Source: Deltaproteobacteria bacterium CG11_big_fil_rev_8_21_14_0_20_47_16 (lineage in GTDB: Bacteria > UBA10199 > GCA-002796325 > 1-14-0-20-47-16). From it: DNA of 64,000 nucleotides. Below, in pieces: positions 13,286-18,292 of this stretch. A program made the translations under genes and the position numbers. The stretch spans positions 1 to 64,000 of the forward strand of contig PCXA01000015.1 in assembly GCA_002796325.1 (NCBI GenBank), read 5' to 3'. Positions within the stretch are counted from its first letter, which is position 1. Each line of letters begins with the position of its first letter. The notes under the pieces were generated by a model. The model ran no database searches, was not told the origin of the DNA, and saw nothing but the letters and a program-made list of their open reading frames with translations.

Positions 13286-13879
13286 TTAGACTGTTTTGTA
13301 TTTTTGGGAGTAGATGTTGCGGCCCATGGCACGCCACTTTTGATAGAAGTAACTGGGAAAGGTACCATCGTCGTCCGTTGAAATCGCCGGATGATTAAGC
13401 GATTCGAACCGGTCATTTGTTGCAATAATGTCGGCTGTCCACTCTGCGTAATCGCACCAGTCGGTTGTAAAATACAGAACCCCATTCGGGATCAAGGCGT
13501 CTGCACACGACTGCACGAACGGTGTTTGAATGAGCCGATTCTTAAAATGCTTACGCTTGGGCCACGGATCCGGAAACCAAATGTGAATCTCATGCACACC
13601 CTCGCGAAACACTTCGGGCAGCACACGCCGCGCGTCCCCTTGAATCAACCACACATTTTCTAATTTATTTTTTTCGCGGCGCACACAGAGCTTATCAAAT
13701 CGCTCGTGCATCAACTCAATGCCACAGACAAGTGCGTTGGGATGTTGTGACGCCAAGTGAAATAGAAAATCGCCGCGGCCCGGACCAATTTCCACAATGA
13801 TGCGCCCATCACTTGATTGAGGCTGGGCCGGATAGCACCACAACGGGTCCCGATAAACGTGAGGAAGATAGTCGTTCAT
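13286..13879 (-). CDS. trmB: tRNA (guanine-N7-)-methyltransferase
   Basis: SAM-dependent enzyme making m7G46 in tRNA. The SAM-binding motif I is E-I-G-P-G-R-G-D-F, followed by the family motifs I-H-I-W-F-P-D-P-W-P-K and K-R-H-F-K-N-R-L. The start is set at the ATG at 13879, which overlaps the folE stop as TAATG and gives 197 aa; the longer frame extension would run far into folE and encodes nothing family-like. Confidence 0.93.
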   Translation of the reverse strand: MNDYLPHVYRDPLWCYPAQPQSSDGRIIVEIGPGRGDFLFHLASQHPNALVCGIELMHERFDKLCVRREKNKLENVWLIQGDARRVLPEVFREGVHEIHIWFPDPWPKRKHFKNRLIQTPFVQSCADALIPNGVLYFTTDWCDYAEWTADIIATNDRFESLNHPAISTDDDGTFPSYFYQKWRAMGRNIYSQKYKTV

Positions 13880-14421
13880 TATCGATTGATGAGTGTCAGA
13901 AATTCGTCGCGCGTGGCTTGCTTGCTGCGGAAGTTGCCCAACATGTGTGAGGTCTGCATGGTGGCACCATGCTTTTGCACACCACGCATTTGCATGCACA
14001 AGTGCTGCGCTTCCACAATCACGCCCACACCACGTGGCTGCAAGATATCATTTAACGTGTCCGCAATCTGTGTGGTCAAACGCTCCTGCACTTGCAGGCG
14101 TCGCGCATACAAATCCACCATGCGCGCAATCTTTGAAATCCCAACGATCTTACCATTGGGAATGTACGCCACATGGGCGGATCCAAAAAATGGCATCAGG
14201 TGATGTTCACACAAACTATAAAGTGGAATATCTTTGAGAACGACCATCTCTTCGTACTTATCACTAAACGTGGCGTTGCGAATCAGCTCAATGGGGTCCT
14301 GGCGATAACCTTCTGTTAGAAACTGATAGCTCTCGGACACCCGCTTAGGCGTTTCCAAAAGCCCTTCTCTTTCAGGGTTTTCGCCGATTTCTGCAAGTAG
14401 TGCTTTAATGATGTTTTGCAT
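13879..14421 (-). CDS. folE: GTP cyclohydrolase I
   Basis: Converts GTP to dihydroneopterin triphosphate, first step of folate synthesis. The zinc ligands are visible in [10 protein letters not shown] and in Q-H-L-C-M-Q, and P-K-R-V near residue 25 and I-G-I/V-S-K-I-A-R are typical. The ATG at 14421 gives 180 aa, the family length; a TTG at 14454 would lengthen it but overlaps the predicted -35. Co-transcribed with trmB. Confidence 0.95.
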
Positions 14422-14430
14422 AGTGCGGGG

Positions 14431-14459
14431 CTTATAGGCAGGGCCCGCTATCAAAACAA
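14431..14459 (-). promoter_or_regulatory. folE promoter, predicted leaderless transcript
   Basis: Minus strand: TTGTTT (14459-14454), 17-bp spacer, TATAAG (14436-14431), 9 nt to the ATG at 14421. No ribosome binding site. A perfect 7-bp palindrome (gcaggac/gtcctgc, 14481-14496) lies 20 nt upstream of the -35. Confidence 0.5.
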
Positions 14460-14519
14460 GCGAAAATTGCTCGTAATAGCGCAGGACGGGTCCTGCACTG
14501 ATACTTCACTCAAGGAAGC

Positions 14520-14735
14520 ACACATTTCATTCGTAGAGCTACGCTGTGCTGAGTATTAAGGCATGTTTATGAGCGTAGTCGTATGACGATGGCAAAAATG
14601 CCATTGGCCATCGAGCTTGAAGGCCGACCAGCAGGAGGACATTCAAGCTCGTTTTATGGCCATAGCATTTTTGTCGAGTCATGACGGCGCGATTATGCCA
14701 CTCAGCACAGCGTAGATTCGGAGAATGAAATGTGT
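14520..14735. repeat. 216-bp inverted repeat: giant hairpin or MITE-like element
   Basis: Two arms of about 100 nt pair imperfectly around a 20-nt loop (14622-14641). Perfect blocks: 14520-14532 with 14723-14735 (13 nt, acacatttcattc), 14540-14554 with 14700-14714 (15 nt), 14593-14601 with 14665-14673 (9 nt), 14612-14621 with 14642-14651 (10 nt). The rest aligns with small gaps. It fills the non-coding stretch between folE and the GMC oxidoreductase (14460-14742); no ORF of note is inside. The perfect terminal repeats suggest a MITE or a structured RNA; I could not find a target-site duplication. Confidence 0.85.
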
Positions 14736-14742
14736 GGAGCTA

Positions 14743-16665
14743 CTACAAACATTCTCGACCAATATATCCAGCAATTTTGTGGGCGGCAGCCATGATGCTG
14801 AGTTGAGGATTAACTCCTAAAGAAGTTGGGAAAATACTGCCATCGGTGACGTATAAATTGTCAAAACCGTACAAACGACAGTGAGGATCCAGAACAGATT
14901 CGTGTGGGTCTGCGCCCATACGGCATGTACCCAATGGATGAAAGGCCTGGAGTTCCAAATCCTTGGCGTGAATGCGCGTATTGTAAATCGGCGCACTGCC
15001 CTGCTCGCGTGTTAACACCGGCAACTGATGAATGCCCGGAAACACCTTGGTCGCACCAGCGGCAAAGAAGATGTCCACCAATGTTGAAATACCACGCACA
15101 AATCGACGCACATCGGTCTTGTTCAAATTATAAAGTGCCAACGCGTGTCCATTGGGCATGCGCAAAATACGTCCACTGGTTGTGTCCGACACCATCAAAC
15201 CAAAACAGGCCAAGTGATTGTAGCGCTCCATTACCTCGCGATGTGCGGGGCCATTGAGCAAGAATGACGTCGCCGTGTATGCGGGCGGCGTAAAGATTCC
15301 TTCGAAGACAATTCCTTCGGCTGCCAAATCATGCACGACCATGCCCTGCGGAATTTCATCCCACCCACGGACTTCGTCTGGAAATAATGCAAGTGCCTTG
15401 GTGGCGGGATGCAATGTCAAATGTCGACCAATCAAACGCGAGGGATCAGGCACACCCGAGCGACGCAAGACCACCGGGGTATGAAAGGTACCACAGGCCA
15501 AAATGACAATTTTGGCTTCAACCGTTAATTTACCACGTCGCTTACCAGTTTGTGGGTCGCAAAAATAGGCCGTCACACCGGTGGCATGGCCGTGCCGAAA
15601 ATCCACGTGACTGACAAGTGTTGATGCATACAACCGCGCACCCGCTTCTAAGGCTGCGGGAATATAAGTAAGGGCCATACTTTGTTTGGCATTTGTTGGA
15701 CAACCAAACGCGCAAACACCACTGCCTTGACAGTTGGGTGCATTGCGAATTAGCGGTTCGGCGGTGAATCCCAACTTTTTAGCACCTTCTTGAAACAGGT
15801 GACTGTTGCGACCCAAATGCGATTCCGCCGCAGGTGCCACGTGCAGCATGCGTTCAACTTCTTCATAATGTTTACCCATGCGGTCGGGTGACCAATTGGC
15901 AAGACCATATTCCCGAACCCAACGGTCATACAAGCGATCCGATGCACGCAAACAGGTGCCTGAATTAATTTCGGTTGTTCCCCCCACACAGCGTCCAACA
16001 GGAGTCAAAATAGCAGGATATCCCACCGTATGCACCATACCGCCATAGCGATACATCTTGCGCGTTTCTGTAATGGCATCTTTACCGTAATCTTTGTGTG
16101 AAAAGTAACTTCCCTCTTCTAAGATCAACACAGAATATCCCTGCGATGCCAAGGTATGTGCAGCCACCGCACCACCAGCGCCACTTCCCACAATACAGAC
16201 ATCCACAATTTCAGTGCGATCACCTTCGGGTGCAAACTCAACATGGTCTGCACGCAACTGAGGCGTTGATTGTGGCGGTTTGAACTTGGGTGTGTAGCCA
16301 CATTGTGCGGCAACCTCTGGAACTGCATAGTAATTGGATACAATAATCGCTTCCAAGTAGCGACGCATCATGCGCCGCACCGACCAATGCGCACGCTGCC
16401 AGCGATCAACCAATTTGCGTCGCCGCTTTAATTTCATGCGACTAAAAAATTTTCCACTGAGTTGATAAAATGGACCCAACCATTCCAAACTATATAATAC
16501 GATTAGAAAGAGGATGCGTGAATCACGCGAAACAGATTGCAAGTGTTCATCCACGCGCTCTGCCAAGCGAACAGATGTTACAGAATGAGATAGCGACCCA
16601 CCTGGGACATCTAAGACCGCCTCTGCAAAGGCCTCAATGATCCGATGGCTGCGCGGGGACAACAT
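14743..16665 (-). CDS. GMC-family FAD-dependent oxidoreductase
   Basis: 640 aa. About 150 N-terminal residues are helical and basic; then the FAD-binding Rossmann motif G-S-G-A-G-G-A-V-A-A, the GMC segment C-V-G-G-T-T-E-I-N-S-G, and the C-terminal block H-P-L-G-T-C-R-M-G with the catalytic His, plus V-N-P-Q-L-S-I-M-A. A C-x(4)-C-x(3)-C cluster (C-Q-G-S-G-V-C-A-F-G-C) matches cholesterol-oxidase/long-chain-alcohol-oxidase-like members. Probably oxidises an alcohol or sterol-like substrate (inference). The ATG at 16665 has GGAG 7 nt upstream and is preferred to the TTG at 16686; it overlaps the end of dsbD by 32 nt. Confidence 0.88.
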   Translation of the reverse strand: MLSPRSHRIIEAFAEAVLDVPGGSLSHSVTSVRLAERVDEHLQSVSRDSRILFLIVLYSLEWLGPFYQLSGKFFSRMKLKRRRKLVDRWQRAHWSVRRMMRRYLEAIIVSNYYAVPEVAAQCGYTPKFKPPQSTPQLRADHVEFAPEGDRTEIVDVCIVGSGAGGAVAAHTLASQGYSVLILEEGSYFSHKDYGKDAITETRKMYRYGGMVHTVGYPAILTPVGRCVGGTTEINSGTCLRASDRLYDRWVREYGLANWSPDRMGKHYEEVERMLHVAPAAESHLGRNSHLFQEGAKKLGFTAEPLIRNAPNCQGSGVCAFGCPTNAKQSMALTYIPAALEAGARLYASTLVSHVDFRHGHATGVTAYFCDPQTGKRRGKLTVEAKIVILACGTFHTPVVLRRSGVPDPSRLIGRHLTLHPATKALALFPDEVRGWDEIPQGMVVHDLAAEGIVFEGIFTPPAYTATSFLLNGPAHREVMERYNHLACFGLMVSDTTSGRILRMPNGHALALYNLNKTDVRRFVRGISTLVDIFFAAGATKVFPGIHQLPVLTREQGSAPIYNTRIHAKDLELQAFHPLGTCRMGADPHESVLDPHCRLYGFDNLYVTDGSIFPTSLGVNPQLSIMAAAHKIAGYIGRECL

Positions 16666-18292
16666 AGGGTTGCTCCAATTTGCCAAGAATAGAGAGCATC
16701 TTCTCGGGTGAAATCACTTCACCAACACGACGGCTTTTGGGTATTTCGGTACCATCTGGATTTAAAAATAGAACAGTTGGCCACCCAACAACATTGAAAC
16801 GATCCAAGAGTTTTTTAAGTTCCGGTGTCATTGTTGTGGCATCAACCCGCCATGTCACCCAATGGGCAGATAACTTTGCAACCACATCCGGATTGTGAAA
16901 GGTTGTTCGATCCATTTCCAGACAAGGCGCACACCACTTGGCCGAAAAATCAACCAAAATGGGTTCATTCACAGCCTTGGCACGACTGAGAACTGTTGCT
17001 TCATCTGTGATCCAAACAACACCTTCTTGTTGTAGAAACGGCACCCGGTCAATCCACGGTACAAACGAATCAAAATAATAAAGTGCTGGCAGGAGCAATA
17101 AAATACCCAAGACCCGTTTTACCCAAACGGCAATATGGGGTTTGCGGGTATGATGGGATAGCGATCCATAAAACGTGCCGACGACAATAAAGAGTGTACC
17201 CATGCCCAGTGCAAAACTGCACATCAGTAAAAATCCGGTCCACACATCTTTGGTAAGGCCCACAAACGCTAGCAATGCACCCATCACAGGTCCCACGCAC
17301 GGCGCGGCCAAGAATCCCATGGAGATTCCCGCCAAAAATGCGCCCAGTGGACCTTTACCGCCAAGCTTGAGAAGAAGATTACGCAACCACATCGGCATTT
17401 GCAGCGTGATGATGTCAAACATGGATAAGCTCATAAAAACAAAGAACAGAATCACAAGCGCCAAGAACCATTTTTGTTGGAACAAGAAGCCCAATTGCAG
17501 TCCCAAGATCGCTGCCAATGACCCCAACAGTGCATAGGTAACGGTCATACCTAAGGTCAGCATGACAGCGAGTGCAAAATTGTGGTGGTGCTTGCGGTGC
17601 TGCCCCACACCAATCACCATTAAGGTAATGGGCAAGAGCGGTAACACACAGGGTGTAAAACTGGTCAGCAAGCCCCCAATAAAGGCTGCCAGGAAGGCCC
17701 AGAGCAGACCACGCTGCACCAACTCGTCTGCCGAGGTGGGCAACTGGAATACGGGCGCTTCTGCAACTTTCTCCTGAGGGACCGGTGCTTCACCTGTCAT
17801 TGCGGGTGTATCATCGGGAGTGGCTCCTGTAGCCGCCACCACCCGCACGGTCCATTGAATCTGTGTCTCTTCGGGGCGTAGACAGAGCTTCTCTGAACAG
17901 CCCTGGTAACTCAACGTTGCGATCAAATCATGGTCTGCAGGCTCCGCAGATGCCGGCACATGGATCTTGGCAGTAATCGGCACTTCTCCCATGTACACTT
18001 GGGCCGCCTGCCCCGTCACCGGATCTTCATGCAGAACCGACTTGGGATACGTTACCTTTTGAACCAAAATGCCCTCAAGGCTCATAAAGTCCAGACTGGT
18101 CTTATCTTGATAGACAAAATGGTTGGGCGGCATTCGTAAGGTAACAGTCAATGTGGCATCGTCACCCGGCTTGATCAGTATGGGGTCAAGATCCCATGAT
18201 GGTTGGAAGGGACTTCCTCCAAAACCCGCAAATGCAGATGCAGTAAGTGTTAAAACGGTGAGAAGAACGGTAATGAGCAGGTGACGTTTCAT
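16634..18292 (-). CDS. dsbD: Thiol:disulfide interchange protein DsbD
   Basis: Carries reducing power from cytoplasmic thioredoxin to the periplasm. Order: signal peptide (residues 1-22), N-terminal DsbD-alpha domain with the Cys pair in Q-G-C-S-E-K-L-C, an eight-helix CcdA-like domain with Cys in T-P-C-V-L-P-L-L and A-A-P-C-V-G-P, and a C-terminal thioredoxin domain with W-C-A-P-C. All six catalytic cysteines are present. The ATG at 18292 opens the signal peptide; an upstream frame extension to 18388 runs into the promoter. It is coupled to the downstream GMC oxidoreductase, an unusual partner. Confidence 0.94.
   Translation of the reverse strand: MKRHLLITVLLTVLTLTASAFAGFGGSPFQPSWDLDPILIKPGDDATLTVTLRMPPNHFVYQDKTSLDFMSLEGILVQKVTYPKSVLHEDPVTGQAAQVYMGEVPITAKIHVPASAEPADHDLIATLSYQGCSEKLCLRPEETQIQWTVRVVAATGATPDDTPAMTGEAPVPQEKVAEAPVFQLPTSADELVQRGLLWAFLAAFIGGLLTSFTPCVLPLLPITLMVIGVGQHRKHHHNFALAVMLTLGMTVTYALLGSLAAILGLQLGFLFQQKWFLALVILFFVFMSLSMFDIITLQMPMWLRNLLLKLGGKGPLGAFLAGISMGFLAAPCVGPVMGALLAFVGLTKDVWTGFLLMCSFALGMGTLFIVVGTFYGSLSHHTRKPHIAVWVKRVLGILLLLPALYYFDSFVPWIDRVPFLQQEGVVWITDEATVLSRAKAVNEPILVDFSAKWCAPCLEMDRTTFHNPDVVAKLSAHWVTWRVDATTMTPELKKLLDRFNVVGWPTVLFLNPDGTEIPKSRRVGEVISPEKMLSILGKLEQPYVVPAQPSDH

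Follow-up and report, generated by a model that had tools for sequence, protein, structure and literature searches.

What a palindrome of more than 200 nucleotides is doing between two bacterial genes is the question raised by this locus. The window, meaning the whole stretch of 64,000 nucleotides analysed here, holds the palindrome in the spacer between a GMC oxidoreductase gene and folE. A sequence-only reading had suggested a MITE or, at the 3' end of the GMC mRNA, a long double-stranded RNA. As set out below, the hairpin is probably a copy of a non-coding, non-autonomous mobile element that is restricted to one phylum and resembles REPINs or MITEs, with some of its copies arranged as inverted doublets.

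The inverted repeat, first described at 14520-14735, is real and proves one base wider on each side (Table 1). Folding of this 218-nt hairpin gives -120 kcal/mol, with 81 Watson-Crick and 6 G-T pairs. Together with its flanks it reaches -123.4 kcal/mol (z -11.5), a value equalled by none of 200 shuffles. The opposite strand folds at -112.9 (z -11.1), so that each strand is far more stable than its shuffles. When the 64 kb were scanned for folding energy in 240-nt segments at steps of 40 nt, the lowest value fell on the hairpin (-116.5, against a mean of -57.9 and a standard deviation of 10.5).

The repeat had been described as perfect blocks of 9-15 nt with 13-bp ends. Perfect blocks are indeed present, but they measure 16, 14, 12, 10 and 7 pairs, the block of 14 forming the ends of the hairpin (CACACATTTCATTC/GAATGAAATGTGTG). 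Between these ends lies a core that consists of a GGCGC-type stem, two purine-rich internal loops, an A-rich stem and a variable apical stem. Likewise, the GGAGGA reported at the apex is there, but in place of a plain purine-rich loop of 20 nt the apex is a conserved structured module, made up of a bulged A, two G-C pairs, a probable tandem G.A/A.G and an invariant closing C-G pair. The same spacer holds a smaller, separate quasi-palindrome upstream of folE (14438..14496, GCAGGGCCCG...CGGGTCCTGC), which is outside the conserved family core.

Table 1. Position of the hairpin, its parts and the neighbouring genes in the window
Feature	Coordinates	Strand	Basis or remark
Giant hairpin, 87 pairs	14519..14736	+ (strand with conserved purine-rich internal loops)	Fold, energy scan, genome copies, strand asymmetry
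Outer stem, left arm, copy-variable	14519..14532	+	14 consecutive pairs with 14723-14736; copies differ yet pair
Outer stem, right arm	14723..14736	+	Pairs with 14519-14532
Conserved core, 141 model positions	14558..14699	+	R1 match 152 bits, R2 match 134 bits
Apical module GGCCGACCAGCAGGAGGACA, 20 nt	14622..14641	+	Alignment, pair counts
GMC oxidoreductase gene	14743..16686	-	Pfam GMC_oxred_N/C
folE, GTP cyclohydrolase I	13879..14421	-	Pfam GTP_cyclohydroI
GMC-folE spacer, 321 bp	14422..14742	.	Relatives G001 and G005: 29 and 56 bp

The two genes are adjacent, in equal order and orientation, in G001 and G005. Both belong to the order of the window, the genomes compared including none from its genus or family, and their folE proteins are 64 and 69% identical to that of the window. 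At this site the relatives lack the insertion: the GMC-folE spacers of G001 and G005 are only 29 and 56 bp long. As the spacer is 321 bp in the window, the simplest account is that the hairpin was secondarily inserted into a conserved gene pair. The short spacers in the relatives also suggest that the pair forms one transcription unit.

Alternatively, the hairpin might be a cis-acting element of a neighbouring gene's mRNA, such as a terminator, a stabiliser or a 3'-UTR structure. It lies 6 bp past the GMC stop codon, and many other copies are likewise near stop codons. This is improbable, since no terminator-like site (a short G+C-rich stem with a run of T after it) is present within 14380-14800, the copies occur in either orientation, inside operons and beside unrelated neighbours, and the spacer is short in the relatives. 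The double-stranded RNA proposed for the end of the GMC mRNA fails as an explanation for the family: elsewhere the copies adjoin unrelated genes and sit within operons in both orientations, and GMC and folE are co-directional genes with short spacers in the relatives.

Further copies are found in the window's own genome, about 9-10 dispersed relatives in all. By BLAST, four of them are nearly complete and 88-90% identical, one is a half copy and others are more distant. Nine sequences were used to build the covariance model R1, which gives eight strong matches, one truncated or chimeric match (C12) and one half copy (C8:227868); seven or eight of its matches in this genome are sequences used to build it. 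Compared with its four closest paralogues, the window copy has 6 to 10 pairs changed on both sides, and all of these are still paired. Other long nested palindromes adjoin family copies in the same genome (L016 and L014 in C8, L017 in C14, L019 in C1), an example being CCAAATTTACCTCGCCGTCTCGCTCGTCGGGC...CGAGACGGCG...TAAATTTGG.

A second covariance model, R2, was built from 48 sequences. It finds the family in 16 of the 46 genomes of the phylum examined, a set that was identical in a class-level search, with 1-58 copies each. The richest genomes are G009 (58 copies), G014 (27), G015 (17) and G029 (14). These counts are lower bounds, given the number of incomplete assemblies and of copies located at the ends of contigs. 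The distribution is uneven even within a genus: five copies in G019 contrast with none in G007, and in another case G020 has seven, G042 two and G025 none.

Outside the phylum no family match was found in any of 339 genomes, with 8 candidates per genome scored, and no member was found among the viral contigs, phages and plasmids searched. Contig scans with the GMC protein and an apical-loop pattern gave no true relatives; the pattern matches failed the covariance model. Rfam has no match to the window hairpin at the gathering threshold, and at relaxed thresholds five related loci matched only unrelated models, all of them below threshold. In the literature on long dispersed bacterial hairpins, only work on REPs and REPINs was found. 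The hairpin family is thus apparently undescribed, and the alignment and covariance model make it possible to annotate it elsewhere.

Within the family, the purine-rich loops and the apical module are conserved, while the sequence of the stems turns over with nearly perfect pairing. In the alignment of 48 copies, standard pairs make up 92.3% of pair cells, and double changes that preserve pairing occur at 47 of 50 pairs. Double-changed cells number 584, against 154.5 after shuffling and 66-140 when partners are slid by 1-3 columns. Fitting of the alignment to the model biases these figures towards the structure; the same hairpin is also obtained from single copies folded individually. A chance palindrome, which a single copy lacking compensatory changes would have left as the explanation, has next to no probability given the z score of the fold, the many copies and the many compensatory changes across a phylum-wide family.

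The two strands of the hairpin are not equivalent. When a symmetric DNA score was used to align the left arm with the reverse complement of the right, purine-purine mismatches (465) far outnumbered pyrimidine-pyrimidine mismatches (47), and G-U (95) outnumbered A-C (32). It is therefore the + strand of the window that carries purine-rich internal loops. Read by hand, these loops contain repeated tandem G.A/A.G steps, for instance UGAGGAG opposite CGACGAG, and they probably adopt tandem G.A geometry. The apex has the consensus YGAC-N3-5-GGAR, and its closing C-G pair is the same in all 48 copies.

Such a pattern could also be produced by a dispersed structured non-coding RNA, cellular or selfish, whose + strand transcripts fold, bind a protein through the G.A loops and were multiplied as a working RNA. 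Strong covariation, a one-strand preference for G-U over A-C and internal loops that stay purine-rich are all expected of such an RNA, but folded single-stranded DNA predicts identical signals. The G.A loops do not discriminate between the two, because tandem G.A pairs are formed by DNA as well as RNA. In addition, no promoter-like site was found adjoining the window copy, Rfam gives no match, the copies in the window and in G019 are antisense to their operon, and inverted doublets have no obvious reason in an RNA. A working RNA is therefore rather unlikely, though it deserves more weight than an mRNA element.

How the arms stay complementary can be seen most clearly in G009, where the sequence of the outer stems differs from copy to copy. 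In 29 hairpins of this genome, the outer stems have 966 Watson-Crick, 7 G-U, 4 A-C and 45 other aligned positions; most of these 45 belong to disrupted copies or to the ends of stems. An example is found in G009:C34, where the 3' tail of thiC and a hairpin have seemingly been duplicated; the outer stems of the two differ by several double changes, all of them paired.

Template switching within hairpins has been described for RNA genes (PMC8794818). In both cases the arms remain complementary while their sequence changes, and few intermediates are seen. The present case differs in that template switching would act on a dispersed repeat. Stepwise compensation should leave more intermediates than template switching, and the near absence of half-changed pairs suggests that template switching also corrects the arms of this family. 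The dozens of young copies in G009 make the long-standing choice between stepwise compensation and template switching directly testable.

The copies are intergenic and lie in either orientation to their neighbours, as judged by ORF length only. They are dispersed, patchy in distribution and found in spacers that are short in relatives. In G019, for instance, a hairpin stands between murG and murC, a spacer that is nearly absent in G024, G034 and G014, and one copy in G014 lies within an operon beside a menD-like gene. No target-site duplication was obvious by eye in flanks from G011 and G009. Duplex folding of the flanks was uninformative on the extent of the palindrome, as it leaves loops unlimited.

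Nine inverted doublets, all of them minus-then-plus, occur in G000 (the window's own genome), G009, G014 and G019, which represent four genera. Their core-to-core gap is mostly 101-109 bp, with 83 and 133 bp in two. Many genomes that carry the family have single hairpins only. The singles in G009 keep remnants of the missing partner's base and look like decayed doublets.

The genes between paired copies were considered as an autonomous element and rejected, as they look chromosomal and include no transposase; read from their sequence, they resemble HigBA, a phosphatidyltransferase, a radical SAM protein, MenD and an NHL-repeat protein. The HigB/HigA-like toxin-antitoxin pair, also named from its sequence, lies between two inverted copies at L062:2145-3500 (G009:C34), where the duplicated 3' end of thiC adjoins the second copy.

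Integron attC sites have a variable stem with strand-specific unpaired bases. The family shares these traits, and two copies sometimes flank genes, so that its hairpins could be attC-type sites of recombination or integration, with extrahelical or mismatched positions on a folded strand recognised by a tyrosine recombinase. The hairpin is longer than attC, however, and is conserved across many loops; no conserved core boxes were noticed by eye, the loci read hold no cassette arrays, and the genes between copies look chromosomal. Such a site is very improbable.

A close likeness is to REPs, which measure 20-40 bp, carry a GTAG or CGTC tag and are linked to RAYT (Y1) transposases (PMC3116915, PMC3733652), and to REPINs, their inverted doublets (PMC3116915). 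Many-copy extragenic palindromes, inverted doublets (here in some genomes), decayed-looking singlets, a patchy distribution, conserved and variable parts and compensatory changes are common to both. The differences are that a single hairpin here exceeds 200 nt and has several conserved internal loops, and that the proximity to RAYT genes expected from REPs was not found. As for the MITE first suggested, that idea stands with respect to dispersed, non-coding, intergenic and foldable copies of about 200-560 bp that are missing at orthologous sites in relatives. It does not extend to a fixed terminal inverted repeat or a parent transposase: the outer stems vary by copy, neither a target-site duplication nor a parent transposon was seen, and conservation resides in the internal loops.

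A mobile element is thus favoured because the copies are dispersed, patchy and in part doubled, because orthologous sites are empty, and because structure and strand asymmetry are conserved. The most economical account is a mobile hairpin family resembling REPINs or MITEs, which stands out from them by its size, its loop pattern and its restriction to one phylum. By analogy with REP and REPIN hairpins, the folded + strand, as single-stranded DNA or possibly RNA, would be recognised by a trans-acting enzyme, with the tandem G.A loops and apical module as the recognised features. Template switching inside the hairpin as it is replicated would be part of what keeps the arms complementary, and selection would maintain the loops. 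If the family is mobile, the REP/REPIN idea extends from palindromes of 20-40 bp to hairpins of more than 200 nt with elaborate conserved loops.

Two candidates for the trans-acting partner were considered and rejected. A reverse transcriptase, which a retron or another RT-dependent element would require, is absent from most genomes that carry the family, among them the window's own and six other near-complete ones. Y1 transposases, the RAYT type, are present in 12 of 12 near-complete positive genomes and in 13 of 17 negatives (one-sided p about 0.1), and of 20 Y1 loci only 1 lies within about 2 kb of a hairpin. The association is weak and lacks proximity, and some of these genes have their own short repeats on their flanks. 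Such REP-like repeats are seen at L214 (G032:C14) and at L210 and L223 (G014). Upstream of the Y1 gene in G032, CACTCGTCAGACGGAGCAA is repeated; it may belong to the CGTC-tagged REPs (PMC3733652).

A further, more specific proposal can be made only tentatively and is itself doubtful. It holds that phylum-specific machinery reads the giant hairpin in its folded state, with its tandem G.A loops in a fixed series, that its arms are template-switched and that families of cores are interchangeable. If true, one plan would serve several unrelated core families and allow multiplication to tens of copies. An example that bears on the cores is the acyl-CoA dehydrogenase/carboxyltransferase locus, where a member of the present family in G020 is replaced in G025 by a hairpin with an unrelated core. 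Because the outer stems at this locus look homologous while the cores are unrelated, hairpin cores may have been exchanged within a shared outer stem.

The core in G025 is of a third, branched hairpin type (L126, G025:C250, about 340-640). In G020 and G042, a second unrelated hairpin family is represented by at least 15 matches (L087:2261-2421, which is G020:C80, and L130-L137). Its core reads GACCCTCAGAAAGATCGAACACCTTAAGGCCTATATAAT...GCGGAGGGC...GTGTCGC and has a branched fold, and its outer stems are copy-specific and nearly perfect.
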